From NCBI RefSeq assembly GCF_000409775.1, contig NZ_KE332392.1, forward strand, positions 38,410-102,409: a stretch of DNA of 64,000 nt, written 5' to 3'. The stretch is from Litchfieldella anticariensis FP35 = DSM 16096 (lineage in GTDB: Bacteria > Pseudomonadota > Gammaproteobacteria > Pseudomonadales > Halomonadaceae). Below are positions 34,395-54,449 of the stretch, in pieces. Below the pieces are notes generated by a model that was given only the letters and a program-made list of their open reading frames with translations, was not told the origin of the DNA and searched no databases. Position numbers and translations under genes: made by a program. Position 1 is the first letter of the stretch, and the number at the start of each line of letters is the position of its first letter.

Positions 34395-34457
34395 GGCTTC
34401 GGGCTTCGGGCTTCGGGCTTCGGGCTTCGGGCTTCGGGCTTCGGGCTTCGGGCTACG
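34395..34457. repeat. Heptanucleotide tandem repeat (8 perfect copies of GGCTTCG plus one variant)
   Basis: Eight exact copies of GGCTTCG fill 34395-34450 and a ninth copy reads GGCTACG (34451-34457). The array lies between glcF and glcG on their minus strand, where it reads as CGAAGCC repeats. The glcF stop codon TAG (34453-34455) lies inside the variant ninth copy. A 7-bp unit is prone to copy-number change. Confidence 0.95.
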
Positions 34458-35724: not shown

Positions 35725-35727
35725 GTC

Positions 35728-36813: not shown

Positions 36814-36822
36814 GGTTATCTC

Positions 36823-38322: not shown

Positions 38323-38422
38323 GTCATGTCCTCTCTAAGCGATGAGACAGGTCTTGTCTGCTGTTATTTGGATGGTGCCAACAATCTGCGCGTTCGAGGC
38401 TTACCTGTCCAGTCTGTGGTGC

Positions 38423-38437
38423 ACTGGTCTGACCAGT
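38423..38437. promoter_or_regulatory. Probable GlcC operator
   Basis: ACTGGTCTGACCAGT is a perfect 15-bp palindrome (odd centre) containing the FadR/GntR-type core TGGTCTGACCA. It lies between divergent glcD and glcC, where GlcC should act. Confidence 0.8.
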
Positions 38438-38452
38438 TGTTTTGCGTTATTG

Positions 38453-38467
38453 TGGAAAGTATTTCCA
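38453..38467. promoter_or_regulatory. Second palindrome in the glcC-glcD promoter region
   Basis: TGGAAAGTATTTCCA has 6-bp perfect arms and a 3-bp spacer. It is 15 bp from the GlcC-like operator and 41 bp upstream of the glcC ATG. It may be a second operator half or an autoregulatory site. Confidence 0.5.
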
Positions 38468-38508
38468 ATTTACACTCTTGAGATTCGAATGAAAGGGCTA
38501 AACTGAAA

Positions 38509-39291
38509 ATGTTGCCTCCAGGCGAACGCATCGTGACCGCACGCACACCCGATACCGTGGCCGCCCAGCTCGAGCAACTGATCCTCGATGGAGTCTTCCG
38601 GCCCGGACAGCTGCTTCCTTCCGAGCGGCGTCTGTGCGACCGGTTGGACGTGTCGCGCTCCTCGCTGCGTGAGGGACTGCGCATCTTGCGTAGCAAGGGC
38701 ATTATCGAAACTCGTCAGGGCAGGGGGTCGGTCGTTGCCCAGCTAGTACCGCCGCGTGACGATAATCCGCTGATGCACCTGTTCCGCGATCATCCGCGCA
38801 CCCTCTACGATCTGCTGGAAGTTCGTGCCCTGCTCGAAGGCGAATCGGCGCGTCTGGCGGCCAGCCGTGGCACCCCGACGGATCGAGTGCTGATCACGCG
38901 CCGTTACGACGAGATGGCCGACTACGTGGCCAAGGCGGGCGCGGACAGTATCGATGTCGAGCGTCTGGCCCGCCTCGACCACGCGTTCCATTTGGCGATC
39001 TGCCAGGCCTCGCACAATCCGGTGCTCGTGCATACGCTGCAGAGCCTGACCGACCTGCTGCTGAGCTCGGTCTTCGCCTCGGTGAAGCATCTCTACCATC
39101 GTCCACGCTCGCGCGAGATGCTCAATCGCCAGCATGCGCGTTTGCATCGTGCGGTGATCGAAGGCAAGCCGGAGCTGGCGCGGCGCGTAGCGCTGGAACA
39201 CCTGTCGAGTATCGGTGAGAGCCTGCGCGAGATCGACGCCGAAGATCGCCGGCTGGAGCGCTCGGCGATGCGGCTGGAGGAGTGGGAGTGA
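38509..39291 (+). CDS. glcC: GntR-family transcriptional regulator of glycolate utilisation
   Basis: A 260-residue FadR/FCD-subfamily regulator. The winged HTH covers about residues 18-85 (PSERRLCDRLDVSRSSLREGL, then KGIIETRQGRGSVV), followed by an all-helical FCD effector domain with the metal-binding His pattern (RLDHAFHLAICQASHN). It is divergent from glcD, as GlcC is in Escherichia coli, and should respond to glycolate. The intergenic TGGTCTGACCA fits its binding class. Confidence 0.9.
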   Translation: MLPPGERIVTARTPDTVAAQLEQLILDGVFRPGQLLPSERRLCDRLDVSRSSLREGLRILRSKGIIETRQGRGSVVAQLVPPRDDNPLMHLFRDHPRTLYDLLEVRALLEGESARLAASRGTPTDRVLITRRYDEMADYVAKAGADSIDVERLARLDHAFHLAICQASHNPVLVHTLQSLTDLLLSSVFASVKHLYHRPRSREMLNRQHARLHRAVIEGKPELARRVALEHLSSIGESLREIDAEDRRLERSAMRLEEWE

Positions 39292-39318: not shown

Positions 39319-40002
39319 TCAGGAATTGGCAGCGCTGGGAGAGGCTTCTTCCTCAATAACGCCGGAAAGCGAGGCGACCTCGAGTTTGTTGCACAGGTGG
39401 TCGCGCAGGATCTGTCCGAGCAGGGGCCCGTCGCGTTTCTTTAGGGCCGCGATCATGTTCTCGTGATCCTCGACCGCTTGGCGCCAGAAGGTATCGGTCA
39501 TCTGCTTGGAGTAACGCACGCGTTTCACGCGTTGGCTCAGATTGTTGTACATCTCCTGAAGCACCTCGTTGTTGGAGGCGGCCAGGATACTTTCGTGAAT
39601 CTGTTGATTGACCTGGAAGTATTCCTGCAATTCCCGTTTGCGATAGTGATCGAGCATGCGCTCGTGCAACCCGCAGATCTTGTCTATCTCCTTGTCGCTG
39701 ATGTGCTGGCAGGCCAGCTCTCCCGATAGCCCTTCCAGCGCACTCATCAGGTCATAGGTGTCCTTGACCATCTTTAGGGTCAGGCGCATCACCCGAGCGC
39801 CACGATTGGGCAAGAGTTCGACCAATCCTTCCGAGGCCAGTACCTTCAGCGCTTCACGCAACGGAGTGCGCGATACCCCAAAACTCTCGCAAAGCTCCTT
39901 CTCGGAGATGCGCTCGCCGGGCATCAATTCGCCGCGCTCGATCAGGTCACGAACACGGTCTGCCACTTCACGGTAAAGGTTTCGGTGCTGAATCTTGCTC
40001 AT
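39319..40002 (-). CDS. GntR-family (FCD) regulator of the TRAP/CoA island (inferred)
   Basis: A 227-residue GntR protein. The HTH lies at about residues 30-75 (ISEKELCESFGVSRTPLREA, then GLVELLPNRGARV) and the FCD domain follows (YFQVNQQIHESILAASNNEVL). It is convergent with glcC and divergent from the GlcG-like and TRAP genes. I infer that it controls that island and binds the A/T-flanked TGAATTCA sites at 40251, 40961 and 46160. The effector is presumably the imported acid or its CoA ester. Confidence 0.85.
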   Translation of the reverse strand: MSKIQHRNLYREVADRVRDLIERGELMPGERISEKELCESFGVSRTPLREALKVLASEGLVELLPNRGARVMRLTLKMVKDTYDLMSALEGLSGELACQHISDKEIDKICGLHERMLDHYRKRELQEYFQVNQQIHESILAASNNEVLQEMYNNLSQRVKRVRYSKQMTDTFWRQAVEDHENMIAALKKRDGPLLGQILRDHLCNKLEVASLSGVIEEEASPSAANS

Positions 40003-40051
40003 GATCAGGTTCCTTTGATGTGGGCGCTGTGTGCCACTCCCGTGTTGCCTT

Positions 40052-40192
40052 AGAGGGTGTTTACAAACTACTGCGCTAGGTCATGCTGCGTTGAAATCAG
40101 CCTTAAAATGCTCATTTACAACCTCGTAAACTCCGCTTTTTCGGCTGATTTCGCCTTGCCTGACCGTCGCTCGTCACATTTGTAAACCCTCT
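40052..40192. repeat. Nested palindromic element (MITE/REP-like), about 141 bp
   Basis: The ends are inverted repeats (AGAGGGTGTTTACAAAC at 40052, matching AGAGGG-TTTACAAA read from the right end). Inside, GAAATCAGCC (from 40093) pairs with GGCTGATTTC (from 40143), and TTTACAACCTCGTAAA forms a third, central hairpin. The three nested stems can fold into one long cruciform. No ORF is present. I expect further copies elsewhere in the genome. Confidence 0.7.
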
Positions 40193-40250
40193 TGCCGCTG
40201 CTGAAATATTCACCTTGCCGGTGGTGAGCTTGCCATTGTCATTTGGTGGT

Positions 40251-40266
40251 ATTATGAATTCAAAAT
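40251..40266. promoter_or_regulatory. Candidate GntR operator, site A
   Basis: ATTATGAATTCAAAAT contains the palindrome TGAATTCA (40255-40262) with A/T flanks, 58 bp before the GlcG-like gene. It matches sites B and C. Confidence 0.6.
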
Positions 40267-40323
40267 GCTAAAAGGTATAGCCACCCGTTCCACAAGAACA
40301 CATCGACAATCACAGGAGTTCCC

Positions 40324-40785
40324 ATGGCAGGCAAGGTTTTCCGTTGTAGCGTACAACTTTCACGCCTCCAGGGCAGGGCGATCCTCGACGGCGCTTTTGC
40401 CAAGGCTCAGGAAGAGGAGATGGAGCCGCTAAGTGTGGTCGTGCTGGATAGCGGTGGGAATATCGTGGCGGCCGAGCGTGAAGATGGATGTGCACCGCTA
40501 AGGATACCGGTTGCTCGGGGCAAGGCCTTTGCCGCGCTTGGCAATGGCGCTGCCAGTGGCGTGGTGGGTGAACGTAATGCCGAGCGTCCCGCGTTTCTGG
40601 CCAGTGTGGCGGCGGCGTCGGGAGGCCAGTTCATCCCGGTGGCGGGCGGCGTGTTGATTCTGGATGACGGTGAACGGGTCATTGGTGCCGTAGGGGTCAG
40701 TGGCGCGTCTTCCGCCGAGGATGAAAGTGCGGCCATTGCCGGTATCGAAGCCGCTGGTCTGGCTTGGGGGCTAGAGCCGGATTGA
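40324..40785 (+). CDS. GlcG/HbpS-family protein, second copy
   Basis: A 153-residue GlcG-type protein (AILDGAFAKAQEEEMEPLSVVVLD, RIPVARGKAFAALG, then GGVLILDDGERVIGAVGVSG) diverged from the glc operon copy. It is the first gene facing the GntR regulator and precedes the TRAP genes by 336 bp. Such proteins often accompany dicarboxylate or hydroxyacid catabolism; a binding or chaperone role for a cofactor is possible. RBS CAGGAG sits 6 nt from ATG. A hairpin follows the stop. Confidence 0.82.
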   Translation: MAGKVFRCSVQLSRLQGRAILDGAFAKAQEEEMEPLSVVVLDSGGNIVAAEREDGCAPLRIPVARGKAFAALGNGAASGVVGERNAERPAFLASVAAASGGQFIPVAGGVLILDDGERVIGAVGVSGASSAEDESAAIAGIEAAGLAWGLEPD

Positions 40786-40798
40786 TTTCGATGTGCTT

Positions 40799-40833
40799 CA
40801 GAGGTCATGACCATGTACTGGCCATGGCCTCTG
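40799..40833. terminator. Hairpin after the second GlcG-like gene
   Basis: CAGAGGTCATG and CATGGCCTCTG form an 11-bp stem with one G-T pair around a 13-nt loop. There is no clean U-run, so it may attenuate rather than stop transcription into the TRAP genes. Confidence 0.45.
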
Positions 40834-40960
40834 GTTCTCATGCCCTTTTCCTACCTCCTCACATTCCTCTCTCCCTGCTTTTTACTGCAACCAACTGATC
40901 TGGAAGTCTTCTTCCGGACTCGTCAAAGCGCCGAGACTAAAGTTTAATACCTAATTCTTA

Positions 40961-40976
40961 ATTTTGAATTCAAATT
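40961..40976. promoter_or_regulatory. Candidate GntR operator, site B
   Basis: ATTTTGAATTCAAATT contains TGAATTCA (40965-40972) within a perfect 12-bp palindrome TTTGAATTCAAA. It lies about 150 bp upstream of dctP in an A/T-rich, promoter-like stretch. Confidence 0.65.
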
Positions 40977-41121
40977 GAGGCGGTGAGGTTGGAACGCAGA
41001 ATATCCCGACCTGAAAGTCCGGCCTGTCCGCAGGCTGTCTTTCGCGATGGAGTACGCCATCGCGGGTAACCTCTCCCGATGGCGAAATCGATACAAAAAC
41101 AAGCCCGAAGTGGAGTTCAGC

Positions 41122-42099
41122 ATGAAATTCCTCAAGACAGCTCTTGCCGCGACCGTCGTGGCACTCGGAGTCCACGCCACTACTGCCAGTGCCCAAGAAA
41201 TCGAGATCAAGTTCGGTCATGTAGGGGGGCCAGGCTCCCTGTTCGAAAAATCCGCCAACGAATTCGCCCGCCTGGCCAACGAACGCCTCGAAGGAAAGGC
41301 AGAAGTGGTGACCTACGGCTCCAGCCAGTTGGGTACCGATGCCCAACTGCTCAATAAGCTCAAGCTCGGTACGGTGGACCTGGCACTGCCGTCGTCGATC
41401 ATGAGCAGCGTGGCGCCCGAGTTCTCTCTGTTCGAAATGCCCTATCTCGTCGAGGATCGCGATCACATGCGGCGGATACGGGATGAGGTACTGAGAGATG
41501 TCTTCTACGATGCGGCCGAAAGCAAGAATTACCGCATCATCGGCATCTGGGAGAACGGTTTCCGCCAGATCACCAACAACGTCAGGCCGATCAACGAGCC
41601 TGCCGACCTCGAAGGGATCAAGTTGAGGACCCCGAATGGCGTTTGGCGCGTGGACATGTTCAAGACCTACGGCGCCAATCCGGCACCGATGGCACTCTCC
41701 GAAGCATTCGTGGCGCTACAGACGGGAGCCATGGATGGGCAGGAGAACCCCTTGGTGCAGATCTACTCCCAGCGCTTCCAGGAAGTGCAGGACTATCTCT
41801 CCCTTTCCAATCACGTCTACACCCCGGCCTATGTGTTGGCAGGGGCGAGCTGGAGCCGCTTGCCCGAGGATGTACAGCAGGTGCTGATCGAGACCGCCGA
41901 GGAAGTCGAGGCGTATGCCCTGCAACAGGGCGCCATGCTCGACGATAACCTCCTCGCCAAATTCGAAGAGGCTGGGATGGAGATCAACGAGGTGGATACC
42001 CAGGCCTTCGTCGACGGCTCCTCCGTGATCTACGAACGGTTTGCCGGCGAAGTCGAGGGTGGCCAGGAACTCCTGGAGCGAGTGGACGAGCTGCGCTAG
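41122..42099 (+). CDS. dctP: TRAP transporter solute-binding protein (DctP family)
   Basis: A 325-residue periplasmic receptor with signal peptide (cleavage after TASA, about residue 24). It has the DctP fold: IKFGHVGGPGSLFEKSANEF, then EGIKLRTPNGVWRVDMFKTYG with the conserved ligand-binding Arg, and ALQTGAMDGQENPLVQI. It should bind an organic acid carboxylate. It is upstream of DctQ and DctM in one operon. The start at ATG 41122 has GGAG 8 nt before; the ORF is open 25 codons upstream but unsupported. Confidence 0.9.
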   Translation: MKFLKTALAATVVALGVHATTASAQEIEIKFGHVGGPGSLFEKSANEFARLANERLEGKAEVVTYGSSQLGTDAQLLNKLKLGTVDLALPSSIMSSVAPEFSLFEMPYLVEDRDHMRRIRDEVLRDVFYDAAESKNYRIIGIWENGFRQITNNVRPINEPADLEGIKLRTPNGVWRVDMFKTYGANPAPMALSEAFVALQTGAMDGQENPLVQIYSQRFQEVQDYLSLSNHVYTPAYVLAGASWSRLPEDVQQVLIETAEEVEAYALQQGAMLDDNLLAKFEEAGMEINEVDTQAFVDGSSVIYERFAGEVEGGQELLERVDELR

Positions 42100-42195
42100 G
42101 AATCGTGTAGCCCAGCTTCCTATGGGGCATGTCTCATGAATGGCGCCGCCGTTACGAGGCATGTCCATCCCTCAACTTTTCAGGAGATGAACATC

Positions 42196-42768
42196 GTGTC
42201 CTTGCGTAATGTCAAGGCTGCCTACCAGAGGCTGCTGGAAGTCATTGTTTTCCTGAACATGCTGGCGCTGTCACTGGTTGTCATCGTCGGCTTCATGTCG
42301 CGCCTGCTGGGCTCACCGTTCAGTTGGTACGACGAGGTCGCCTCCATCGGTCTCGCCTGGCTCACCTATTACGGGGCAGCCCTGGCGGCGGCGAAGGGAG
42401 CGCACATCACTTGCCCCAGCATCATCAACATGGCGTCTCCGCGTATTCGGCTGCCTGTAGCGTTGCTGGCCGTGGCCATCACCATCGCGTTCTTCGTGCT
42501 GCTCGGCTACACGGGATGGCAGGTCGTGATGATCCTGGAGGGATCGACCCTGGTGAGCCTGACCAGTATCCCCTTGCAGCTGACCCAATCGGTCATTCCC
42601 ATCGGTGCTGCACTGTTCATCATCGCCGAGTTGCTGCGTCTACCGGAGGTGATCGAAAGTGCCCGCGGTGCGGGGTTCGTGGATCACGAGTTGGAAGAGG
42701 CGGGCATCAACCCTGACGATATCCACGCGACAGGACCGGACGGGATCAAGATTCCCGACCGTGCCTGA
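42196..42768 (+). CDS. dctQ: TRAP transporter small permease (DctQ family)
   Basis: A 190-residue membrane protein with four helices and the DctQ pattern (NMLALSLVVIVGFMSRLL, FSWYDEVASIGLAWLTYYGA). I prefer the GTG at 42196: AGGAG is 9 nt upstream of it but directly abuts the ATG at 42187, which leaves no room for that start. The C-terminus is a hydrophilic 35-residue tail (VDHELEEAGINPDDIHATGP) longer than usual. Confidence 0.85.
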   Translation: MSLRNVKAAYQRLLEVIVFLNMLALSLVVIVGFMSRLLGSPFSWYDEVASIGLAWLTYYGAALAAAKGAHITCPSIINMASPRIRLPVALLAVAITIAFFVLLGYTGWQVVMILEGSTLVSLTSIPLQLTQSVIPIGAALFIIAELLRLPEVIESARGAGFVDHELEEAGINPDDIHATGPDGIKIPDRA

Positions 42769-42800
42769 CGGACATCAGAGAACCATCAGGAGCATAGGAA

Positions 42801-44084
42801 ATGATCATTCTATCGATGTTCGTTGGGCTGATTCTGCTGATCTTGATCAACGTGCCGGTCGCAATTGCCCTGGGAATCGTCGGTGCGCTGGCGACCGTCG
42901 CCAGCTTCGGCACCTTGGCTCTACCCAACGTGGGTATGGTGATGTTCGATGGTGCCACCAAGTTTCCCTTGATCGCGATTCCGCTCTTCATCCTGGCCGG
43001 CGCCATCATGAACGCGTCGAGTATTTCTCGCCGCCTGATCGATCTAGCCATGGCCATGGTGGGTTTCATCAAGGGCGGCCTGTCCATGGTGACGATCGGG
43101 GCATCCATCTTCTTTGCCGAAATATCCGGATCGGCCGTGGCGGGGGTATCGGCCATTGGCAGCATTCTGATCCCGGCAATGCGCAAGAAGGGATACTCGA
43201 AGGAATTCTCCGCTGCCATCTCATCGTCGGCTGCCAGTCTTGCCATCATCCTTCCGCCTTCCATTCCCATGATTCTCTATGCCGTCATGTCCGGGGAGTC
43301 GGTGGTGAAGATGTTCATCGCCGGGATATTCCCTGGCTTGCTCGGGGCGATGGGCTTGGCCGCCATGTGCTACTACCTGGCGAGGAAGCATGGTTTTCCC
43401 TCGGAAGGGAAATTCCAGGCGATGCGGCTATGGGAGGCGTTCAAGAATGCCATCTGGGCCCTGCTGATCCCGGTCATCATCCTGGGCGGTATCTTCGGCG
43501 GTATCGTTACCGCGACCGAAGGCGCGGCATTGGCAGTGGTCGTCGCCATCTTCATCAGCGCCGTGATCTACCGGGAATTCAATCTGAAGATCTTCTACAA
43601 GTCGTGCATCGATGCTGGTGTTCAGACAGCGGTGGTCATGCTGCTGGTGGCCAGTTCAGCAGTGGTGGGGTTGTACCTGACGGAGACGCAGATTCCCCAG
43701 CAACTGGCGAACTCCATCAGCGATCTGACCAGCAACAAGTACATCATTCTGGCGCTGCTTAACATCATCTTCCTGATTCTCGGCATCTTCCTGCACTCGG
43801 CGGCCGCCATCATCCTGGTGGTGCCTATCGTGCTGCCGCTGGTCGTCGAAGTGGGTATCGACCCGCTGCATTTCGGTCTGATCGTGACGCTGAACCTGGC
43901 CATCGGGCAGCAGACGCCGCCGGTGGCAAGCGTATTGATCGCGTCATGTTCGATCGCACGCTCGGATATCTGGGCCACGACTCGTACCAACCTGTGGTTC
44001 ATCGGCGTGCTGTTCGCGATCCTGATGATCAATACCTACATCCCGGACTTCGCCCTGGCTCTCGTCAACCTGATCTATGGCTGA
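42801..44084 (+). CDS. dctM: TRAP transporter large permease (DctM family)
   Basis: A 427-residue permease with about 12 membrane segments that forms the sodium-dependent transport unit. It shows GGLSMVTIGASIFFAEISGSAVAG, SSAASLAIILPPSIPMILYAV and NLAIGQQTPPVASVL, all DctM hallmarks. It is 32 bp after dctQ and followed by the crotonase-fold gene in the same operon. Confidence 0.93.
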   Translation: MIILSMFVGLILLILINVPVAIALGIVGALATVASFGTLALPNVGMVMFDGATKFPLIAIPLFILAGAIMNASSISRRLIDLAMAMVGFIKGGLSMVTIGASIFFAEISGSAVAGVSAIGSILIPAMRKKGYSKEFSAAISSSAASLAIILPPSIPMILYAVMSGESVVKMFIAGIFPGLLGAMGLAAMCYYLARKHGFPSEGKFQAMRLWEAFKNAIWALLIPVIILGGIFGGIVTATEGAALAVVVAIFISAVIYREFNLKIFYKSCIDAGVQTAVVMLLVASSAVVGLYLTETQIPQQLANSISDLTSNKYIILALLNIIFLILGIFLHSAAAIILVVPIVLPLVVEVGIDPLHFGLIVTLNLAIGQQTPPVASVLIASCSIARSDIWATTRTNLWFIGVLFAILMINTYIPDFALALVNLIYG

Positions 44085-44144
44085 TTGGAGCGGTGCTGAC
44101 GGCAACCCATGCCGACAGCATTGTCGTGAAAACGGAGAAGCTAA

Positions 44145-44930
44145 ATGAGCAATGACAGTCTCTTGTACGAAGAGAAGAATGGCGTGGCCTGGATCGGTTT
44201 CAACCGTCCTCAAAGCCGTAACGCCATGACCTGGGCCATGTACGACGCGCTCGAAGAACGCTGCGATCGACTTGTCGAGGACGATGGCGTTCACGCCGTG
44301 GTGCTCTATGGCGTCGGTGGCGAAGCCTTCGTGGCAGGCACCGACATTACCCAGTTCACCCACTTCTCGGAGCCGCATGATGCCATCGACTACGAGCGGC
44401 GCATCGATCAGGTCGTCGGTAAGCTCGAATCGCTCGACAAACCCACCATCGCGCTGATCGAAGGGGCCTGTGTCGGCGGCGGCGCGGCGCTGGCCATGGT
44501 CTGCGACTTCCGCTACTGCACACCGTCGATGAAGTTCGGCGTACCCATCGCCCGGACCCTCGGCAATACCTTGTCGATCACCAATGTCTCGCGGCTGGTC
44601 GACATGATCGGCATCGCCCGCACCAAGGAAGTACTGATGATGGCCAAGCTGTTCGGCGCTGACGAGGCGCATCGGATCGGTCTGGTCAACGGGGTCTTCT
44701 CAGCGCAGACAATCGAGGACGAGGTGTCCGCCATCGCTGCCGAATTCGCCAAGCGTGCTCCGCTGACGGTTCAGGCCAGCAAGGCGTTGGTGGGGCGGGT
44801 TCAAGCCCATCGCAGAGCGGCTTTCGACGCCAGCGACGACTGGGTCACGACCTGCTACATGAGCCGGGATTTCAAGGCGGCCGTCGACAAGTTCGTCAAC
44901 AAGACGACGTTCGAATGGGCGGGAAACTAA
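44145..44930 (+). CDS. Crotonase-fold protein lacking both hydratase glutamates
   Basis: A 261-residue enoyl-CoA hydratase/isomerase-superfamily protein. The oxyanion-hole segments are present: FVAGTDI (about 62-68) and CVGGGAALAMVCD (109-121). Aligning with classical hydratase by eye, the catalytic Glu after GGG-C is Ala115, and the Glu of the FGQPE motif is Ile135 (FGVPI). A canonical hydration is therefore unlikely. Other crotonase chemistry (isomerisation, C-C cleavage, decarboxylation, dehalogenation or hydrolysis of a CoA ester) is more plausible. It sits between TRAP genes and a CoA-transferase, so its substrate should be the CoA thioester of the imported acid. Confidence 0.88.
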   Translation: MSNDSLLYEEKNGVAWIGFNRPQSRNAMTWAMYDALEERCDRLVEDDGVHAVVLYGVGGEAFVAGTDITQFTHFSEPHDAIDYERRIDQVVGKLESLDKPTIALIEGACVGGGAALAMVCDFRYCTPSMKFGVPIARTLGNTLSITNVSRLVDMIGIARTKEVLMMAKLFGADEAHRIGLVNGVFSAQTIEDEVSAIAAEFAKRAPLTVQASKALVGRVQAHRRAAFDASDDWVTTCYMSRDFKAAVDKFVNKTTFEWAGN

Positions 44931-44953
44931 TATACGACATCGAGAATGAACGA

Positions 44954-46141
44954 ATGCTGCCACTCCAAAAGCTGAAAGTATTGGACGTCTCACAGATCAT
45001 GGCCGGCCCTTATTGCACCATGGTGCTGGCTGATATGGGCGCGGACGTCATCAAGGTCGAGAAGCTCAAGGGCGGTGACGACAGTCGCCAGATGGGGCCT
45101 TACGTCAATGATGAGTCGACCTGCTTCTCGCAGATCAACCGCAACAAGAAAAGCATCTCGCTCAATCTTAAGGACGAGCGGGCCCGCGAGATATTCTACC
45201 GTCTGGCCGCCGATGCGGATGTGGTCGTCGAGAATTACCGGCCGGGTGTCACCCAGTCGCTCAAGATCGACTACGAGACACTCAAGGAGATCAATCCAGG
45301 CATCATCTACTGCTCGATCTCCGGTTACGGACAAACCGGCCCTTATAGCCACCGGGGTGGTTTCGATCTGGTTGCCCAGGGGATGACCGGACTGATGTCG
45401 ATGACCGGTGAGAAGGGCGGGCGTCCGCTGAAGACCGGCATTGCCGTGTATGACATTGGTGCGGGTATCACGGCGGTCTATTCCATCCTCGCGGCCTATA
45501 TTCACAAGATGACTAGTGGCGAAGGGCAGCACATCGACATTGCCATTGCCGAGTGCGGACTCCCCTGGTTCACCTGGGAAGCAGCGGCCTACTTTGCCGA
45601 GGGCAAGGTGCCCGAGCCAACCGGTTGGCGACATCGCGTTTCCGCTCCCTATCAGGCGATCAAGGCACGCGATGGCTACCTGATGCTTGGCTGCGCCAAC
45701 CAGCGTACCTGGGAGCGTTTCTGCCAGGACGTGCTCGAACGCGAAGACTTGCTTGCCGATGAACGGTTCCTGACCAATTTCGACCGCGGCCAGCATGTCG
45801 AGGAACTGGAGGCGCTGCTCGAATCGATCATGGCCGAGCGGGATACGGCGTACTGGCTGGAACGTTGCGACAAGGCCGGTGTCCCGGCGGGTCCGATCAA
45901 CGACTTCGCCGAGGCCATGCAGGACGAGCACTATCTGGCGCGTGGCATGGTGCAGGAGATGGAGCATCCGGTGATTGGCAGGATGAAGACCATTGGCTTC
46001 CCCAGCAAGTTCTCGGCGACGCCGTCGCAGATTCGCAGTCCCGCGCCATTGTTCGCTCAGCATACCGATGAAGTGTTGCTGGAGCTGGGGCTTTCAAGGG
46101 ATGAGCTAGGAGCCTTGCGCGCGGATGGTTGCATCAAGTAA
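44954..46141 (+). CDS. Class III CoA-transferase (CaiB/BaiF family)
   Basis: A 395-residue formyl-CoA transferase-type enzyme. Key elements are MAGPYCTMVLADMGADVIKVE (about 16-36), the catalytic Asp167 in AVYDIGAG and DLVAQGMTGLMSMTG. It swaps CoA between acids, activating the imported acid before the crotonase-fold step. Substrate choice cannot be read from sequence; relatives act on formate/oxalate, carnitine, mesaconate, itaconate and benzylsuccinate. RBS is weak. ATG 44954 is chosen; 13 earlier codons are open. Confidence 0.9.
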   Translation: MLPLQKLKVLDVSQIMAGPYCTMVLADMGADVIKVEKLKGGDDSRQMGPYVNDESTCFSQINRNKKSISLNLKDERAREIFYRLAADADVVVENYRPGVTQSLKIDYETLKEINPGIIYCSISGYGQTGPYSHRGGFDLVAQGMTGLMSMTGEKGGRPLKTGIAVYDIGAGITAVYSILAAYIHKMTSGEGQHIDIAIAECGLPWFTWEAAAYFAEGKVPEPTGWRHRVSAPYQAIKARDGYLMLGCANQRTWERFCQDVLEREDLLADERFLTNFDRGQHVEELEALLESIMAERDTAYWLERCDKAGVPAGPINDFAEAMQDEHYLARGMVQEMEHPVIGRMKTIGFPSKFSATPSQIRSPAPLFAQHTDEVLLELGLSRDELGALRADGCIK

Positions 46142-46159
46142 CGCTTTTTTTAAACGAAT

Positions 46160-46175
46160 ATATTGAATTCATTAT
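46160..46175. promoter_or_regulatory. Candidate GntR operator, site C
   Basis: ATATTGAATTCATTAT contains TGAATTCA (46164-46171) with A/T flanks like sites A and B. It lies 23 bp before the aminotransferase ATG and so may control an internal promoter. Confidence 0.6.
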
Positions 46176-46198
46176 CAAAAATACAAAGAGGCGCTTCC

Positions 46199-47407
46199 AT
46201 GCTGAAACTCGACTTTCATCCGTCCGGCCGCCACTTCCTGCAAATTCCCGGCCCCTCGCCTGTACCGGATCGTATCCTGCGTGCCATGAGCCTGCCGACC
46301 ATTGACCATCGGGGACCGGAATTCGGTGCTCTTGGATTGGCGTTGCTGGACAAGATCAAGCGGATCTTCAAGACCGAAAGCCCGGTGATCATCTACCCGG
46401 CTTCCGGTACCGGTGCCTGGGAAGCGGCGCTTTCCAATACCCTTTCACCCGGTGACAAGGTGTTGATGTTCGAGACCGGCCATTTCGCCACCCTGTGGCA
46501 CAAGATGGCGCGTCGCCTGGGACTCGAGCCGGAATTCATCGGTCTGCCGGGGTATGAAGGGTGGCGCCACGGGGTCCAGGCTGACATGATCGAGTCACGT
46601 CTCAAGGACGATGTTCGCCACGAGATCAAGGCGGTCTGTGTGGTGCACAACGAAACTTCCACCGGTGTGACCAGCGATATCGCCGCGGTGCGCCGGGCCA
46701 TCGATGCCGCCGGGCATCCGGCGCTACTCATCGTTGACACCATTTCCGGCCTGGCTTGCGCTGATTATCGCCACGACGAGTGGGGCGTCGACGTCACCGT
46801 ATCCGGTTCGCAGAAGGGGCTCATGCTGCCGCCGGGGATCAGCTTCAATGCGCTTTCCGACAAGGCGATCGCTGTTAGCCAGAAGGCACGACTGCCCAAG
46901 AGTTTCTGGGCCTGGGACGAGATTCTCGAGGCCAACAAGAACGGCTACTGGCCTTATACCCCCAATACCAATCTACTTTACGGCCTCAACGAGGCGCTCG
47001 ACATGCTACTCGAAGAGGGCTTCGATCATGTGCTCGAACGCCATCAGCGTTGGGCGGCCGGGGTGCGTACCGCCGTGGAGGCATGGGGGCTCGAGATCCA
47101 GTGCCAGGATCCAACGGTCTACTCACCGGTATTGACCGGCGTGGTAATGCCAGAAGGAATCGATGCCGATGAGGTGCGACGGATCATCTACGAACGCTTC
47201 GATCTGTCGCTGGGCATGGGGCTCGGCAAGGCCAAAGGCAAGATGTTCCGCATTGGCCATCTGGGAGATTGCAATGACCTGACACTGATCGCCACCCTCG
47301 GCGGCTGTGAAGCTGGCATGAAGCTCGCCGGGGTGGCGCTCAAGGGCAGTGGGGTGACCGCTGCACTTGACTATTTCGCCAATCACCCGCTCAAGGGCGA
47401 CAACTGA
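46199..47407 (+). CDS. Class V aminotransferase (serine/alanine-glyoxylate type)
   Basis: A 402-residue PLP enzyme with fold type I features: LQIPGPSPVPDRILRAMS, the phosphate-binding YPASGTGAWEAALSN, and VDTISGLACADYRHDEWGVDV. The PLP Lys206 is in SGSQKGLMLPPG. Members transfer the amino group of serine, alanine or aspartate to glyoxylate, giving glycine. This fits a product of glycolate oxidation or of the preceding CoA-ester cleavage. GAGG precedes ATG 46199, and site C lies just upstream. Confidence 0.88.
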   Translation: MLKLDFHPSGRHFLQIPGPSPVPDRILRAMSLPTIDHRGPEFGALGLALLDKIKRIFKTESPVIIYPASGTGAWEAALSNTLSPGDKVLMFETGHFATLWHKMARRLGLEPEFIGLPGYEGWRHGVQADMIESRLKDDVRHEIKAVCVVHNETSTGVTSDIAAVRRAIDAAGHPALLIVDTISGLACADYRHDEWGVDVTVSGSQKGLMLPPGISFNALSDKAIAVSQKARLPKSFWAWDEILEANKNGYWPYTPNTNLLYGLNEALDMLLEEGFDHVLERHQRWAAGVRTAVEAWGLEIQCQDPTVYSPVLTGVVMPEGIDADEVRRIIYERFDLSLGMGLGKAKGKMFRIGHLGDCNDLTLIATLGGCEAGMKLAGVALKGSGVTAALDYFANHPLKGDN

Positions 47408-47445
47408 TCCGCCGGTACCGTGCTAGGTATGGCTAAGGAGGAACA

Positions 47446-50442
47446 ATGACGTCCTTGACTGATAACCACCACGCGCGAGATGCCAGGATCAAGCCAGTGA
47501 CCGAGATGGAAGCCCGGCTCAAGCGGGAACTGGCCGGTGACGTGCTGTTCGATCATGCCTCGCGGGGGCGCTACTCGACGGACGCATCGATCTACCAGAT
47601 TACACCGGTTGGCGTGGTGATTCCCCGTCATCAACGGGATCTGGGGCTTGCCCTGGAGATCGCCAGGGATGCAGGGGTGCCCGTACTGGCGCGTGGCGCT
47701 GGTACCAGCCAGTGTGGCCAGACGGTCGGCGAGGCGCTGGTGATCGACACCACGCGCCATCTCAATGGCGTGGTCGAGTTCGATGCCGAAGCACGTACCG
47801 TGGTGGTCGAACCGGGTATCGTGCTCGATCACCTCAATGCCTGGCTCAAGCCCCATGGGCTTTGGTACCCGGTGGATGTTTCCACCAGTGCTCAATGCAC
47901 CATCGGTGGCATGGCCGGCAATAACTCCTGCGGCTCACGTTCGATCCGTTACGGCAATATGGTGCACAACGTGCTCGGCGTGGATGCCGTACTGCCCGAT
48001 GGTAACGAGGTGGGCTTCGGCTTCGTCGACGAACTGGCCGAAGGGAGCAAGGCGCGTCATTTGGCCGACCGGGTTCGGGCGATTGCCGAGCGTGTGGGTC
48101 CCGAGATTCGCGAGCATTTCCCCAAGGTGCTGCGCCGCGTCGGTGGCTATAACCTGGATCTGTTCGATTGCCAGAACCCCAAGCCCTACGACCCGGATGG
48201 CCGGGCCAACCTGGCGCACCTGCTGGTCGGTTCCGAGGGCACGCTAGGGGTGAGTCGACGGATCAAGCTGCGGCTCTCACCTCTTCCCAAGCACAAGGTA
48301 CTGGGAGTGGTGAATTTCCCCACTTTCTACCAGGCCATGGATGTCACGCAGCATATCGTCAAGCTCGATCCTTCCGCCGTGGAGTTGGTCGACCGCACCA
48401 TGATCGATCTTTCACTGGAGAATCCGGCCTTTCGTCCGGTGATCGAGAAGGCCTTGATCGGTCGGCCCGACGCGGTGCTGCTGGTGGAGTTTGCAGGGCA
48501 GGATCGCGATGCCCAGCTTCAAGCGTTATCCCGTCTCAATGAGCTAATGGCCGATCTGGGCCTGCCGGGCTCTGTGGTCGACATGCCCGAGCCAGCCGAG
48601 CAGGCAGCATTGTGGAACGTGCGCAAGGCGGGACTCAACATCATGATGAGCATGAAGGGGGATGGCAAGCCGGTCTCCTTCATCGAGGACTGCGCAGTAC
48701 CGCTTGAACATCTCGCTGAGTATACCGACAAGCTGACCCAGGTATTCCACCGCTACGGTACCGAAGGCACCTGGTATGCCCACGCCAGTGTGGGGACACT
48801 GCATGTACGTCCCATTCTCGATATGCGCCGCGACGGTGCGGAGAAGATGCGCGAGATCGCTGAGCAGGCCTCAGCACTCGTGCGGGAGTACAAAGGGGCC
48901 TATTCCGGCGAGCACGGCGATGGTCTGTGTCGAGGCGAATGGGTGGCCTGGCAGTTCGGCGAGACGATCAATGATGCCTTCCGGGAGATCAAGGCGCTCT
49001 TCGACCCGGAAAACCGCTTCAATCCGGGCAAGATCGTCGACACGCCGCAGATGGACGACGATCGCTATTTTCGTTTTCCCCGGCATTACAAGACGATTCC
49101 GTTGACGCCCGTATTCGACTGGTCGGCGTGGAACGTCAAACGCGATCCACTCACCGGCGAACAGAGTGCACCGGGCAGCGCTGGCGATCCCACCCATGGC
49201 CTGGCCATGGCAGTGGAGATGTGCAACAACAACGGCCATTGCCGCAAGTTCGATGCCGGTACCATGTGCCCCAGCTATCGGATCACCAAGGAGGAGCAGC
49301 ACCTGACCCGCGGCCGAGCCAATACCTTGCGCCTGGTGCTTTCCGGTCAGCTGGGCGAGGAGGGGTTGGCCGGTGACGATGTGAAGGAGGTGCTGGATCT
49401 GTGTGTGTCCTGCAAGGGTTGCAAGCGCGACTGCCCGACGGGCGTCGACATGGCCAAGTTCAAGATCGAGGCGCGGGCCGCTCGAGTGAGCGCCAAGGGG
49501 TTGTCACTGCGCGATCGCTTCGTCGGTGAACTGCCGCGCTATGCGCCTTGGGCCTCACGCTTTTCGAGCTTGGTGAACGCCACGGAGCGGGTGCCGTTCA
49601 TTGCCAGCCGCATCAAGCGGGGGTTGGGTCTTGCTCCACAGCGTACCTTGCCGACCTTCCATGGCAATTTCCTGGGTGAGTCACATGCTACTCAGGGCAA
49701 CACCACCCGTGAGGTGATGCTGTTCGTCGATACCTTCAACAACTATATGGAGGGCGATAATGCACGAGCAGCCAAGCGTGTGCTCGAGGCTGCCGGTTAC
49801 CGTGTACATCTCAATGTCCGAAAGGGAGAGCGACCACTGTGCTGTGGACGCACCTATCTCTCCTCGGGCCAGTTCGACAGGGCAAAGAGGGAGGCACGTC
49901 GCACGCTGGACCACCTGATGCCCTATGTGGATCGTGGTGTGGCCATCGTCGGGCTCGAGCCATCGTGTCTGCTCACCATGCGCGACGAGTTCCTGCAGTA
50001 CGGGTTCGGCGATGAAGCCAAGAGACTGTCGGACGCGGCCTACCTGTTCGAGGAATTCCTGGTCAAGGCACGAGCCGCCGATGAGTTGCCCTTGGAACTC
50101 AAGCCAGTTGGGCACAGGCGTGCCATGCTGCATGGGCACTGCCATCAGAAGGCCTTCGATGCCGTGCGCCCTGTCGAGCAGGTATTGAGATGGATTCCTG
50201 GCCTCGAGGTCACGACCATCGAATCCTCCTGCTGTGGCATGGCGGGCAGCTTCGGCTATGAGGTCGAACACTACGAAGCCTCCATGCAGATGGCCGAGCT
50301 GTCGCTCCTGCCGGCGATTCGTGAGTCGGACAACGACGCTGTGCTGGTGGCCGACGGGACCAGCTGTCGGCACCAAATTCATGATGGTAGTGGCCGCGAG
50401 GCGATTCACGTGGCCAGGCTCCTGGAGCAGGCGTTGGCTTGA
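47446..50442 (+). CDS. FAD- and Fe-S-containing 2-hydroxyacid dehydrogenase (YdiJ-like fusion)
   Basis: A 998-residue protein fusing a GlcD-type FAD module (LARGAGTSQCG at 81-91) to a GlcF-type iron-sulfur module. The clusters include Cys593-NNNGHC with MCPSY, and Cys653-VSCKGCKRDCPTG; two CCG motifs follow at about residues 799 and 928 (CCGRTYL, CCGMAGS). The length and order match YdiJ, recently reported as a D-2-hydroxyglutarate dehydrogenase. It probably oxidises a D-2-hydroxyacid and feeds electrons to an unidentified carrier. It is the longest gene in the window and lies between the aminotransferase and threonine aldolase. Confidence 0.9.
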   Translation: MTSLTDNHHARDARIKPVTEMEARLKRELAGDVLFDHASRGRYSTDASIYQITPVGVVIPRHQRDLGLALEIARDAGVPVLARGAGTSQCGQTVGEALVIDTTRHLNGVVEFDAEARTVVVEPGIVLDHLNAWLKPHGLWYPVDVSTSAQCTIGGMAGNNSCGSRSIRYGNMVHNVLGVDAVLPDGNEVGFGFVDELAEGSKARHLADRVRAIAERVGPEIREHFPKVLRRVGGYNLDLFDCQNPKPYDPDGRANLAHLLVGSEGTLGVSRRIKLRLSPLPKHKVLGVVNFPTFYQAMDVTQHIVKLDPSAVELVDRTMIDLSLENPAFRPVIEKALIGRPDAVLLVEFAGQDRDAQLQALSRLNELMADLGLPGSVVDMPEPAEQAALWNVRKAGLNIMMSMKGDGKPVSFIEDCAVPLEHLAEYTDKLTQVFHRYGTEGTWYAHASVGTLHVRPILDMRRDGAEKMREIAEQASALVREYKGAYSGEHGDGLCRGEWVAWQFGETINDAFREIKALFDPENRFNPGKIVDTPQMDDDRYFRFPRHYKTIPLTPVFDWSAWNVKRDPLTGEQSAPGSAGDPTHGLAMAVEMCNNNGHCRKFDAGTMCPSYRITKEEQHLTRGRANTLRLVLSGQLGEEGLAGDDVKEVLDLCVSCKGCKRDCPTGVDMAKFKIEARAARVSAKGLSLRDRFVGELPRYAPWASRFSSLVNATERVPFIASRIKRGLGLAPQRTLPTFHGNFLGESHATQGNTTREVMLFVDTFNNYMEGDNARAAKRVLEAAGYRVHLNVRKGERPLCCGRTYLSSGQFDRAKREARRTLDHLMPYVDRGVAIVGLEPSCLLTMRDEFLQYGFGDEAKRLSDAAYLFEEFLVKARAADELPLELKPVGHRRAMLHGHCHQKAFDAVRPVEQVLRWIPGLEVTTIESSCCGMAGSFGYEVEHYEASMQMAELSLLPAIRESDNDAVLVADGTSCRHQIHDGSGREAIHVARLLEQALA

Positions 50443-50470
50443 ACCATGGTCCATTGTTGGGAAGGGGCTT

Positions 50471-50498
50471 GAGAGGGTCGCAAGGCTCTCTCTTTTTT
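50471..50498 (+). terminator. Intrinsic terminator candidate after the 998-residue dehydrogenase
   Basis: GAGAG pairs with CTCTC around GGTCGCAAGG, and TTTTTT follows. The stem is short. It would separate this gene from the threonine aldolase 68 bp downstream. Confidence 0.55.
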
Positions 50499-50566
50499 AT
50501 TGGCATGACGTTTCTATCGGCACGACGAGGCCTCGGCAAGGGGCGCCGGAGATTTGGGATGACAAC

Positions 50567-51583
50567 ATGATGATCGATCTACGCAGCGATACCGTGACAC
50601 GGCCGACACCTGGCATGCGTGAGGCGATGCTCGACGCACCGGTAGGCGACGATGTGTGGGGTGACGACCCCAGTGTGGCAGCGCTCGAGGCTATACTCGC
50701 TGAACGCGCCGGCTACCCATCGGCGCTGTTCTTCCCTTCCGGCACACAGAGCAACCTGGCGGCCTTGATGTCGCATTGTGGGCGAGGCGATGAATTCATC
50801 GCCGGACAGTACTCGCACATCTACCGTGACGAGGGCGGAGGAGCGGCAGTACTCGGCGGCATCCAGCCGCAGCCCATCGAGCAGGACGCGAATGGCTGTC
50901 TACCACTCGATAAGGTGGAGGCGGCCGTCAAGGGCGAGGATATTCACCATGCCCGTACGCGGCTGATCGCCTTGGAGAATACCTTTCGCGGCAAGGTACT
51001 GTCTCAAGACCATGTCGAGCGCCTGGTGAATTTTGCCGCCGAACATGGCTTGGCGACACACCTGGATGGCGCCCGTCTGTTCAATGCTTGTGTCGAGACA
51101 GGACAGCCCTTGTCAGCCCTATGTACTGGATTCGATTCCGTATCGGTGTGTTTTTCAAAGGGACTGGGGGCACCGGTCGGTTCGCTATTGATGGGTGGCG
51201 AGGCATTCATTGCCCAAGCGCGTCGCTGGCGCAAGACATTGGGAGGTGGAATGCGCCAGGCCGGCATTCTGGCCGCCGGATGTCGCTATGCCTTGGAGCA
51301 TCAGGTCGAACGCCTTGCCGATGATCACCGCCATGCCCGGCTACTGGCTGAGGGGCTATCGCAGATCGACGAGGTCGAGGTGCTGGCCTGTGATACCAAT
51401 ATGGTTTTCATCGAGATTCCGGAGTGCCATCGAGAAGAACTGAAGATATTTCTTCAGATGCAGGGAGTGTTGATTGCGGTCTCGACACGCCTTCGCCTGG
51501 TGACCCACCTGGATGTCCGTGAGGACGATATCCGATACGTCATACGCTGCATAGGCGACTATTTTGCCGGGCAGCGAGTTTGA
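50567..51583 (+). CDS. ltaE: Low-specificity L-threonine aldolase
   Basis: A 338-residue PLP enzyme cleaving L-threonine or L-allo-threonine to glycine and acetaldehyde. It opens IDLRSDTVTRPTPGMREAM. The PLP Lys198 is in FSKGLGAPVGS, preceded by HLDGARLFNA. It is the glycine-producing partner that suits the aminotransferase upstream. ATG 50567 (or the adjacent ATG 50570) is the homology start; a longer frame reaching 50234 overlaps the previous gene and is spurious. RBS is weak. Confidence 0.9.
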   Translation: MMIDLRSDTVTRPTPGMREAMLDAPVGDDVWGDDPSVAALEAILAERAGYPSALFFPSGTQSNLAALMSHCGRGDEFIAGQYSHIYRDEGGGAAVLGGIQPQPIEQDANGCLPLDKVEAAVKGEDIHHARTRLIALENTFRGKVLSQDHVERLVNFAAEHGLATHLDGARLFNACVETGQPLSALCTGFDSVSVCFSKGLGAPVGSLLMGGEAFIAQARRWRKTLGGGMRQAGILAAGCRYALEHQVERLADDHRHARLLAEGLSQIDEVEVLACDTNMVFIEIPECHREELKIFLQMQGVLIAVSTRLRLVTHLDVREDDIRYVIRCIGDYFAGQRV

Positions 51584-51629
51584 GAGGAGGGTCGCAGAGA
51601 CTACGGCGATCTATCGAGATGGTGGTGCG

Positions 51630-51661
51630 CGATGCCCGCAGCCGTTCGGCCGCGGGCATCG
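51630..51661. terminator. Strong hairpin between convergent ltaE and lactate permease genes
   Basis: CGATGCCCGC and GCGGGCATCG are exact complements (51630-51639, 51652-51661) and enclose a further GCCG/CGGC stem. With no U-run it is likely a shared 3'-end structure for both genes. Confidence 0.6.
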
Positions 51662-51676
51662 AGGCCGTGAGCCATC

Positions 51677-53377
51677 TCAGCCCAACTGCATCAGGGCATC
51701 GCTGATGCCAAACCCATAGAAGGCGATCAACGCAATGATGCCGGTGAAGATGACGTAATAGAGCGTCGGCAGGATGGTCTTGCGCAACGTCGTTCCCTCA
51801 CGTCCCAACAGGCCAACTGTCGCCGAGGCCGCCACCACGTTGTGGATGGCGATCATGTTGCCCGCCGCGGCACCTACCGCCTGTAGAGCTACCATCATTG
51901 CCGTGGACAGCCCGAGTTGCTGGGCCACGTTGAACTGGAAGTCGGACAGCATCAGGTTGGACACGGTGTTGGAGCCAGCAATGAAGGCACCCAAACCGCC
52001 CACGGCCGGGGCGAAGAACGGGTAGATGCTGCCTACGCTATCCGCCACGGCTTGTGCCATGGCCACTGGCATGGATACCAGGTCGGCGGCATTGATGCCC
52101 GAGTTGATCAGGATCCGCACCATGGGGATGGTGAAGATCAGCACGAAACCAGCACCAAGAATGGTCTTGGTCGACTCGCCAAAGGCCTCCTTGACTTCGC
52201 CCGTGCGCATGCGGTGCAGACCGATGGTCAGCAGCACCACGATCAGCAGGATACCGCCTGGCAGATAGAGGGGTTCGATACTGCCGGATACTCCGGCTTC
52301 GCCGAGGATATTGCTCCAGCCAACACTCAATGAGGTCAGCGCGCTCTTCACCGGTTCCACGGTGCGTGAGATCACCAGCAGCACCGCCAGCAACACGTAG
52401 GGAACCCAGCCCATGAAGGTCGAGATGGGAGCCTTGCCGACGACCTCGTCCATCTTGATCTCGAGCTTGCCGATCCATTCGTCCGGCCAGGACGTGCTTT
52501 CCGGGAAATCCCAGACATCCTTGGGTATCAGGAAACCCTTGCGCGCTGCCGGCACGACGATGGCCAGGCCAACCATAGCGCCGATCATCGACGGGAATTC
52601 CGGTCCCAACAGTACCCCTGCCAGCATGTAGGGCACCACGAAGCAGATGCCGGCAAAGATCGCGAACGGTGCGATCGACAGGCCTTCCTTCCAGGAGCGG
52701 TTGGCCCCGAAGAAGCGCACCATGATCAGCACCAGGATCAACGGCATCAGAATGCCCACGATGCCGTGCACGATGGCCACTTCCGCAGCGATCAAACGGA
52801 AGTACTCCAGCCATGAGGCGCCTCCGGCCGTCAGTTGCTCGGTGATGCCGGCTTGATTGATGCCACCCGAGACACCAACCACGATCGGCGTGCCCACGGC
52901 GCCGAACGACACCGGTGTGGATTGGATCATCATACCCACCACCACGGCAGCCAGTGCCGGGAAGCCCAGCGCCACCATCAAGGGAGCAGCCACCGCCGCT
53001 GGCGTTCCGAAGCCCGAGGCCCCTTCGATAAAACAGCCGAACAGCCAGGCAACGATGATCGCTTGTACGCGCCGGTCGGGGCTGATGCCCGAGAAACCAT
53101 TGCGAATCGCCTTGATGCCACCGGAGTGCTTCAAGGTGTTGAGCAGCAGAATGGCGCCGAAAATGATCCACAGGATCGATACCGTGAGGATCAAGCCTTG
53201 GAAGGTCGAAGCAACGACCCGATTGAAACTCATCTCCCAGCCGAACAAGGCGATTAGTGCGGTGACGATGAACACGATGGGCATGGCCACCTTGGCGGCC
53301 ATACGAAACCCGATCAACAGCACGCCTGCCAACACCAATGGCAGGAAGGCGAGCAGTGGGAGCAACGTGGAATCCAT
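51677..53377 (-). CDS. lctP: L-lactate permease family transporter (LctP)
   Basis: A 566-residue inner-membrane permease with about 12-14 helices. The family signature regions are [21 protein letters not shown] (about residues 110-130), [19 protein letters not shown] and [15 protein letters not shown]. It imports L-lactate, D-lactate or glycolate with protons. It faces threonine aldolase and lies at the end of the acid island. An LldR-like palindrome 84 bp upstream of its start points to lactate-type GntR control. AGAGGACG precedes ATG 53377. Confidence 0.92.
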
Positions 53378-53581: not shown

Positions 53582-53662
53582 ATGGACAAGGACTTGGACC
53601 GAAGCCTTGCTGTCATGCTGGGGTATGAGGGAACGGGCCCAACGGCTGAGATGTCCGACTGA
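53582..53662 (+). CDS. Possible 26-residue leader peptide or remnant
   Basis: ATG 53582 to TGA 53660-53662 encodes MDKDLDRSLAVMLGYEGTGP and six more residues. Its stop overlaps an ATG of the next frame. It is tiny and without a clear ribosome-binding site, so it is low confidence. Confidence 0.25.
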   Translation: MDKDLDRSLAVMLGYEGTGPTAEMSD

Positions 53663-53679
53663 TGACGCGAGGAGGCGAT

Positions 53680-54390: not shown

Positions 54391-54449
54391 TAGTCCGCTA
54401 TGTCGGGGAATGTGTAATGTTGTCGGGATAAGAGACACGGGAGGTTGTT

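Follow-up and report, generated by a model that had tools for sequence, protein, structure and literature searches.

Which acid is consumed by a bacterial gene cluster that joins a tripartite adenosine triphosphate (ATP)-independent periplasmic (TRAP) transporter to a coenzyme A (CoA)-transferase, a crotonase-fold protein and a glyoxylate-type aminotransferase, and how much of the flanking DNA belongs to it? We addressed both questions at a locus of Litchfieldella anticariensis FP35, on contig C16 of its 5.07-Mb genome (G000); all coordinates are counted within the window, that is, the whole 64,000-nt stretch analyzed. The original prediction read positions 39319-53377, which adjoin the glcDEFG genes, as a single organic-acid pathway, and every gene that it named is indeed an open reading frame (ORF) at its place. 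The TRAP transporter, CoA-transferase, non-hydratase crotonase, glyoxylate-type aminotransferase and YdiJ-like enzyme form one conserved unit, whereas ltaE, lctP and glcDEFG probably fall outside it.

The core lies on the forward strand and comprises the TRAP solute-binding protein DctP (41122-42099), the small permease DctQ (42136-42768; PF04290) and the large permease DctM (42801-44084), followed by the crotonase-fold protein (44145-44930), a class III (CaiB/Frc/SUGCT-type) CoA-transferase (44915-46141), a class V aminotransferase of the serine/aspartate-glyoxylate type (agt, 46199-47407), and a YdiJ-like, GlcD-GlcF-type flavin adenine dinucleotide (FAD)/iron-sulfur 2-hydroxyacid dehydrogenase (47446-50442). 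All TRAP subunits exceed their Pfam cut-offs (DctP, 271 vs 23.4 bits; DctQ, 73.7 vs 28.3; DctM, 368.8 vs 23.8), and DctP and DctM also pass TIGR00787 (217 bits, cut-off 175) and TIGR00786 (394 bits, cut-off 268), respectively. The dctP ORF opens at 41047, and its start was set at the signal-peptide-like MKFLK (41122); the agt ORF runs from a TTG at 46163, and that of the CoA-transferase shares 16 bases with the crotonase gene, an internal start at M14 being possible. Among 80 loci fetched from a genome scan with the crotonase alignment, 42 keep the window order dctP-dctQ-dctM-crotonase-CoA-transferase-aminotransferase-YdiJ-like, so the claim survives the order-conservation check that the original prediction had itself put forward. 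These loci span Halomonas, Billgrantia, Vreelandella, Stutzerimonas and Pseudomonas; two others (L048 and L051) hold the identical gene set rearranged, and a Marinobacter contig (L039) stops past the CoA-transferase. The core order is conserved far beyond chance.

Co-occurrence followed the same pattern. The crotonase is found in 54 of 151 family genomes, and the aminotransferase and the YdiJ-like orthologue (at least 72% identity) each in 45, which are the same 45 genomes and all lie inside the 54; the former count omits a second, 61% copy in G059, and the latter omits G001, G013 and G125, with paralogues only 37-39% identical, as well as extra low-identity copies. In a phylum-wide sample, the aminotransferase (E <= 1e-100) occurs in 38 of 42 crotonase genomes vs 31 of 356 others, or, at 57% identity or more, in 34 of 42 vs 11 of 356, the two scans being taken as covering identical 398 genomes and the tests being uncorrected for kinship. 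Plasmid records of Limimaricola (L086) and Acidiphilium (L087) carry, respectively, YdiJ-like, aminotransferase, DctPQM, crotonase and CoA-transferase genes, and CoA-transferase, crotonase, sodium-symporter-family transporter and aminotransferase genes. Endozoicomonas (L072) has the aminotransferase, DctPQM, crotonase, CoA-transferase, GntR and YdiJ-like genes, further Pseudomonadota genomes bear the unit with DctPQM or TctC-type transporters, and a 1.2-Mb one-contig genome (L203) combines YdiJ-like, aminotransferase, DctPQM and CoA-transferase genes with a more distant crotonase. As separate observations on distribution, two proteins labelled Ectocarpus sp. (P0053 and P0207) are 75% and 89% identical to the window crotonase and aminotransferase and probably derive from bacterial contigs in an algal assembly, and a locus labelled as a Klebsiella pneumoniae metagenome-assembled genome (L081), a label that may be wrong, encodes a 52% identical crotonase of the same family.

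Where does the unit end, and what controls it? A GntR/FCD-family regulator gene (39319-40002, reverse strand; Pfam GntR and FCD above cut-off), predicted to act locally, adjoins hbpS/dctPQM in many loci, hbpS encoding an HbpS/GlcG-like protein (40324-40785, forward strand; PF03928, 90.7 bits, cut-off 25). The gntR upstream regions of 44 sequences share the palindrome consensus TATTATGAATTCAAAATT, present at 11 or more of 14 letters in 40 of them. In the window, operator-like palindromes lie upstream of hbpS (TATTATGAATTCAAAATG, 40250-40267), upstream of dctP (40960-40977, with weaker overlapping matches at 40939-40953) and just before agt (46159-46176); with at most one mismatch, the core pattern occurs at five places in the genome, including these three, and its reversed control at none. 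Among as many as 43 relatives, the site lies ahead of hbpS in 39/39, of dctP in 43/43 and of agt in 34/42, and is rare or absent before the crotonase gene (2/43) and ydiJ (0/42), against a background of 52 in 1000 random 360-base segments reaching the threshold. The matrix was built from gntR/hbpS upstream regions, so the hbpS count is circular and dctP and agt are the independent tests; where hbpS is missing, as in a few loci, the region upstream of dctP coincides with the matrix-building one. This distribution predicts a regulon of hbpS, dctPQM-crotonase-CoA-transferase and agt-ydiJ. Judged from these sequences, the palindrome is probably the control site of the unit, which is probably under one GntR regulator.

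These data bear directly on the wide version of the original prediction, in which LtaE, LctP and the glc genes would share the pathway. The gene of the L-threonine-aldolase-family protein LtaE (about 50567-51583, forward strand; NF041359 and PRK10534 above cut-off) and that of an LctP-family permease (51677-53377, reverse strand; NCBIfam 341.6 bits, cut-off 341.15) lie past ydiJ, and glcDEFG with glcC (33970-39291) directly adjoin the cluster. All are neighbours in many Halomonas loci, a weak operator match at 53469 precedes the window lctP (9.1 bits vs 15.8-35.7 for the 40 model sites), and LtaE could use glycine and glyoxylate; ltaE lies -7 to 98 bases past ydiJ in 13 relatives, 9 of which have a CaiE-like gene behind it, and may be an accessory there because it follows ydiJ so closely. 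On the other hand, the site is absent in relatives upstream of ltaE (0/12), lctP (0/26), glcD (0/31) and glcC (0/24), for which reason these genes are probably neighbours or accessories. Furthermore, LtaE, its gene being present in only 13 of the 80 loci, is at most accessory to the core, and no glc, ltaE or lctP gene lies in the fetched stretch of eight Stutzerimonas/Pseudomonas core loci. A predicted intrinsic terminator (50471-50492, forward strand) also separates ydiJ from ltaE and would end the core operon in the window genome; terminator-like sites in the window are at chance overall (9 found vs 10.4 expected), so this call depends on the length of its stem and on its T run. Of 45 sequences, only the window and L044 have such a site behind ydiJ, much as in a control past caiB (2 of 54); it was thus rejected as a conserved boundary and is informative for the window genome alone. 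A sigma-70 promoter scan fell below chance (3 found vs 6.3 expected). Collectively, these data make this wide version very unlikely.

What, then, could the CoA pair do? The CoA-transferase matches PF02515 over its full length (440.8 bits, cut-off 23.3; residues 1-366 of 366), and its D151 aligns with an Asp in 10uh and 9br6, fitting the Asp of a GG-x-D segment that we take to be the class III active site. It falls below every named class III NCBIfam model compared, that is, succinate-glutarate (330 vs 750), mesaconate (281 vs 700), CoA:oxalate (269 vs 522), formyl-CoA (249 vs 504) and carnitine (133 vs 413). Three other class III transferases of the genome were rejected as second copies: two are 35-36% identical, with no family crotonase within about 7 kb on either side, and the third is a DddD-like protein of two domains. 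The latter, an 835-aa ORF (contig C15, L180:8151-10658, reverse strand) with two CoA_transf_3 domains, presumably has the architecture of the dimethylsulfoniopropionate lyase DddD, and succinate-semialdehyde dehydrogenase (SSADH)-like and GcvA-like LysR genes lie nearby.

Its partner belongs to the crotonase superfamily by Pfam ECH_1, alignments and fold, and passes only one of the 25 NCBIfam models listed, PRK06144, named enoyl-CoA hydratase (344.7 vs 272). The two glutamates of hydratases (rat E144 and E164) correspond to A115 and I135, and neither is found at the aligned positions in any of 53 sequences (A/G/S/N/T/V at 115, I/V at 135), whereas Y83, E84, T138, N141, D232 and Y238 are invariant. 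With both catalytic residues missing, as the original prediction had supposed, the protein is unlikely to be a classical hydratase. A structure model (mean predicted local distance difference test score 76) retrieves crotonases and confirms the fold, and it chooses no reaction.

The component families are all known, as are CoA-transferase and crotonase pairs, CaiB/CaiD being one; AcuN, of the AcuN-AcuK pair, is itself a class III CoA-transferase. In Halomonas HTNK1 and D47, as described in the passages available of one report, AcuN and the crotonase-family hydratase AcuK are encoded together and act jointly on acrylate (PMC13104084). The window pair resembles them in its arrangement, in its presumable use of a small acid and in lying in the same bacterial family, and in a comparable scheme an unsaturated or hydroxy acid would receive CoA and then be hydrated, dehydrated or epimerised, the hydroxy acid finally being oxidized by the YdiJ-like enzyme. 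The tandem of both families, the CaiE-like partner, the hydratase name conferred by PRK06144 and the occurrence of AcuNK and DddD in Halomonas (PMC13104084) all suit it. Nonetheless, AcuK/AcuH are true hydratases, AcuH having two essential glutamates (PMC5651017), and both are replaced in all 53 sequences of the window family compared, so AcuNK-type hydration was set aside; the shortfall against the carnitine CoA-transferase model likewise counts against a CaiB/CaiD-like route. The acrylate genes are moreover linked to ddd, and those excerpts name no aminotransferase or YdiJ-like enzyme, both of which the window unit has (PMC13104084, PMC5651017). Altogether, we consider this explanation quite unlikely. 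In the passages retrieved by an open-licence literature search, no description was found of a CoA-transferase/crotonase pair alongside both a glyoxylate aminotransferase and a YdiJ-like enzyme.

The remaining enzymes give clues to the end products. The best Protein Data Bank sequence match of the aminotransferase is 6pk1, 'Serine--glyoxylate aminotransferase' (372 bits; next best, 153), and the nearest NCBIfam model is that of BhcA (NF045640; 447.3 vs 650 bits); both this protein and the YdiJ-like one stay under the cut-off of every NCBIfam model listed for them, the latter scoring 501.9 vs 1350 with the YdiJ D-2-hydroxyglutarate dehydrogenase model (NF049975), 204 vs 568 with GlcD and 81 vs 333 with GlcF. 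The YdiJ-like chain joins GlcD-like and GlcF-like domains in a single protein (Pfam FAD_binding_4, FAD-oxidase_C, Fer4 and CCG), with a C653 cluster and CCG motifs at 799 and 929. An HbpS/GlcG-like gene adjoins it in L160, L161 and L163, much like glcG within the glc operon, the aminotransferase/YdiJ-like pair of L192 has a BhcC-like 3-hydroxyaspartate aldolase gene as its neighbour (372 vs 690), and L-serine ammonia-lyase and GcvA-like regulator genes lie behind the CoA-transferase in Salinicola L061. From this context we infer glycolate, glyoxylate and glycine as the probable outflow. The arrangement recalls the beta-hydroxyaspartate cycle (BhcA-D) and the glc operon in having a nearest-family glyoxylate aminotransferase fed by glycolate oxidation, with an aldolase nearby in some genomes, and differs in missing the BhcA cut-off and in adding the TRAP transporter, CoA-transferase and crotonase.

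Building on the gene content, order, co-occurrence, palindrome and loss of both hydratase glutamates documented above, we propose, tentatively and in the knowledge that it may well be wrong, that the unit takes up a small hydroxy-diacid, likely tartronate (hydroxymalonate), and converts it via a CoA ester to glycolate, glyoxylate and glycine. DctPQM would import the diacid, and the CoA-transferase would move CoA from glycolyl-CoA onto tartronate, yielding tartronyl-CoA and free glycolate. The Glu-less crotonase would then decarboxylate tartronyl-CoA to glycolyl-CoA, closing the CoA cycle at no ATP cost. Glycolate would be oxidized to glyoxylate by the YdiJ-like enzyme with HbpS and transaminated to glycine by the aminotransferase. 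A gamma-carbonic-anhydrase/PaaY/CaiE-like hexapeptide protein (55209-55733, forward strand), encoded about 4.8 kb past ydiJ and a frequent partner (38 of 56 sequences examined, window included), may free CoA from dead-end esters; it scores under the NCBIfam cut-offs for gamma-carbonic anhydrase (176.8 vs 250), PaaY (143.4 vs 319.6) and CaiE (124.8 vs 305). In its fullest form, that is, a natural ATP-free tartronyl-CoA/glycolyl-CoA cycle across Pseudomonadota that runs from tartronate import through a new Glu-less crotonase decarboxylase to glycolate, glyoxylate and glycine, the proposal is decidedly doubtful.

Precedents can be found for parts of this cycle. Oxalyl-CoA decarboxylase is a thiamine diphosphate enzyme rather than a crotonase, and methylmalonyl-CoA decarboxylase YgfG/ScpB, from which the window crotonase differs in its low score (110.9 vs 257), is partnered by a CoA-transferase of another class. 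Formyl-CoA:oxalate CoA-transferase and oxalyl-CoA decarboxylase (PMC3720670) place a class III transferase in a closed, ATP-free decarboxylation cycle for a small diacid, as proposed here; unlike that system, the window CoA-transferase lies under the Frc models. Similarly, the TaCo synthetic photorespiration bypass, called new-to-nature in the accessible text (PMC10729300), employs glycolyl-CoA and tartronyl-CoA, with an engineered carboxylase that runs in the opposite direction.

Genes accompanying the crotonase elsewhere offer clues to the substrate. In 26 hand-picked crotonase loci, mostly but not all without an adjacent aminotransferase (L048 and L051 carry one further on), we counted genes for 3-hydroxyisobutyrate dehydrogenase (HIBADH)/tartronate-semialdehyde-reductase-like proteins in 10, SSADH-like proteins in 9, PdxA-like proteins in 9, a CaiE-like protein in 11, a GlcD-like dehydrogenase in 6 loci and tartrate dehydrogenase in 2, each count including the locus of query origin. 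Acting in series, such enzymes could lead from a hydroxyacid (e.g., glycerate) through a semialdehyde to a malonate-type diacid, its CoA ester and a decarboxylated 2-hydroxyacid CoA ester. The tartrate dehydrogenase neighbours suit another scheme, in which tartryl-CoA or another 3-carboxy-3-hydroxyacyl-CoA, formed by the CoA-transferase, would undergo retro-aldol cleavage by the crotonase into glyoxylate and glycolyl-CoA; CoA transfer would free glycolate, and the YdiJ-like enzyme and aminotransferase would take both products to glycine, the same end products as in the tartronate proposal. Tartrate dehydrogenase could, however, also supply a glycerate-to-tartronate route, the HIBADH-like and SSADH-like genes in series are explained less well, and the transporter offers no evidence specific to tartrate, which leaves retro-aldol cleavage possible, if rather doubtful. 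No ligand could be called from the solved relatives of DctP, the best being a so-named dicarboxylate binder and sialic-acid binders that score alike (174 and 169 bits). A neighbouring MR_MLE gene in L053 was likewise rejected as a D-tartrate dehydratase and is uninformative on tartrate because its closest solved relatives include L-fuconate dehydratases (570 bits).

Several observations weigh against the tartronate proposal. Tartronate is a guess from chemistry, and tartrate fits nearly as well. The HIBADH-like gene scores under its model (168 vs 341), sugar-acid loci, too, often contain HIBADH-like, SSADH and PdxA-like genes, and a clear homologue of L-fuconate dehydratase is among the companions. 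The crotonase fails the methylmalonyl-CoA decarboxylase model (PRK11423), its structural matches scoring above the decarboxylase are a hydratase whose role is unknown (28.1), CarB (26.6) and enoyl-CoA isomerases (about 27), and a Glu stands two residues past position 135 in 3 of the 17 crotonases aligned. MenB-like crotonases, which form C-C bonds, also lack both glutamates, so their loss does not choose decarboxylation. Furthermore, L186 and L187, in genomes without a close crotonase, hold the aminotransferase/YdiJ-like pair and lack the CoA pair across the 19 kb fetched, and the crotonase of other aminotransferase loci is a different one, retaining one Glu (L185, L200 and L203) or both (L189); the CoA step would thus be one of several arrangements.

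Four further loci (L192, L195, L196 and L197) have no CoA pair in the fetched stretch and a crotonase elsewhere in the genome, so the aminotransferase/YdiJ-like pair can apparently occur by itself, with the CoA pair perhaps serving as its feeder. Most of these loci (L186, L187, L192, L196 and L197) also fit a pathway running in reverse, with that pair as a downstream sink: a glycolate-like acid would be imported and oxidized to glyoxylate by the YdiJ-like enzyme, the crotonase would join glyoxylate to an acyl-CoA in an aldol reaction, and the CoA-transferase would free a hydroxy-diacid such as malate, amounting to a CoA-recycling stand-in for malate synthase. The C-C bond formation of MenB-type crotonases and the glc genes adjoining many Halomonas loci are consistent with this direction. 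Yet the TRAP, crotonase and CoA-transferase genes are adjacent and co-read, and Salinicola loci keep the three together; in genus g4 (n = 11; taken as Salinicola), the aminotransferase and YdiJ-like genes lie together, on a different contig from the crotonase or at least 12 kb away from it, an arrangement linking the CoA pair to import. The reverse pathway is therefore unlikely.

Additional features were recorded around the window locus and its relatives. The glcC, glcD (PRK11230), glcE and glcF genes are above an NCBIfam cut-off, glcD being narrowly under a second model (TIGR00387; 561.7 vs 567.9) and glcG under its own (156 vs 246). Between lctP and the CaiE-like gene (53662-55139) lie genes for beta-etherase-like and disulfide-bond-oxidoreductase-like glutathione transferases, both under their models' cut-offs and one or both near the cluster in many Halomonas loci. 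DctQ sequences of Halomonas-type loci (dctPQM of L006-L060) fall into identity groups of about 40-50%, 59-63% and 78-87%, with enzymes 69-91% identical, and the more distant Stutzerimonas enzymes are paired with a 70-77% identical DctQ, a pattern that resembles a swap of the transporter. In another group of loci (L175, L177, L088 and L091), the crotonase/CoA-transferase pair repeatedly has an amidohydrolase-family gene nearby, in some of them with a RraA-family or HIBADH-like gene, which hints at an additional substrate, and a gene for JetA (Wadjet defence) was noted some 2 kb from a family crotonase (L166:5705-7120).

The unit extends well past Halomonas, to named Alpha- and Gammaproteobacteria and further Pseudomonadota, and, given this wide distribution, the acid that it consumes is probably widespread in nature. 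Because the NCBIfam subfamily is called enoyl-CoA hydratase despite the absence of both residues, the protein would be misnamed in many genomes. With the gene set fixed, an operator-like site defined and few candidate acids to consider, the question of the substrate can be tested directly. If the tartronate proposal were true, tartronyl-CoA would be a natural metabolite and not only an engineered one, and engineering of glycolyl-CoA carboxylation could start from a natural decarboxylase acting on this intermediate.

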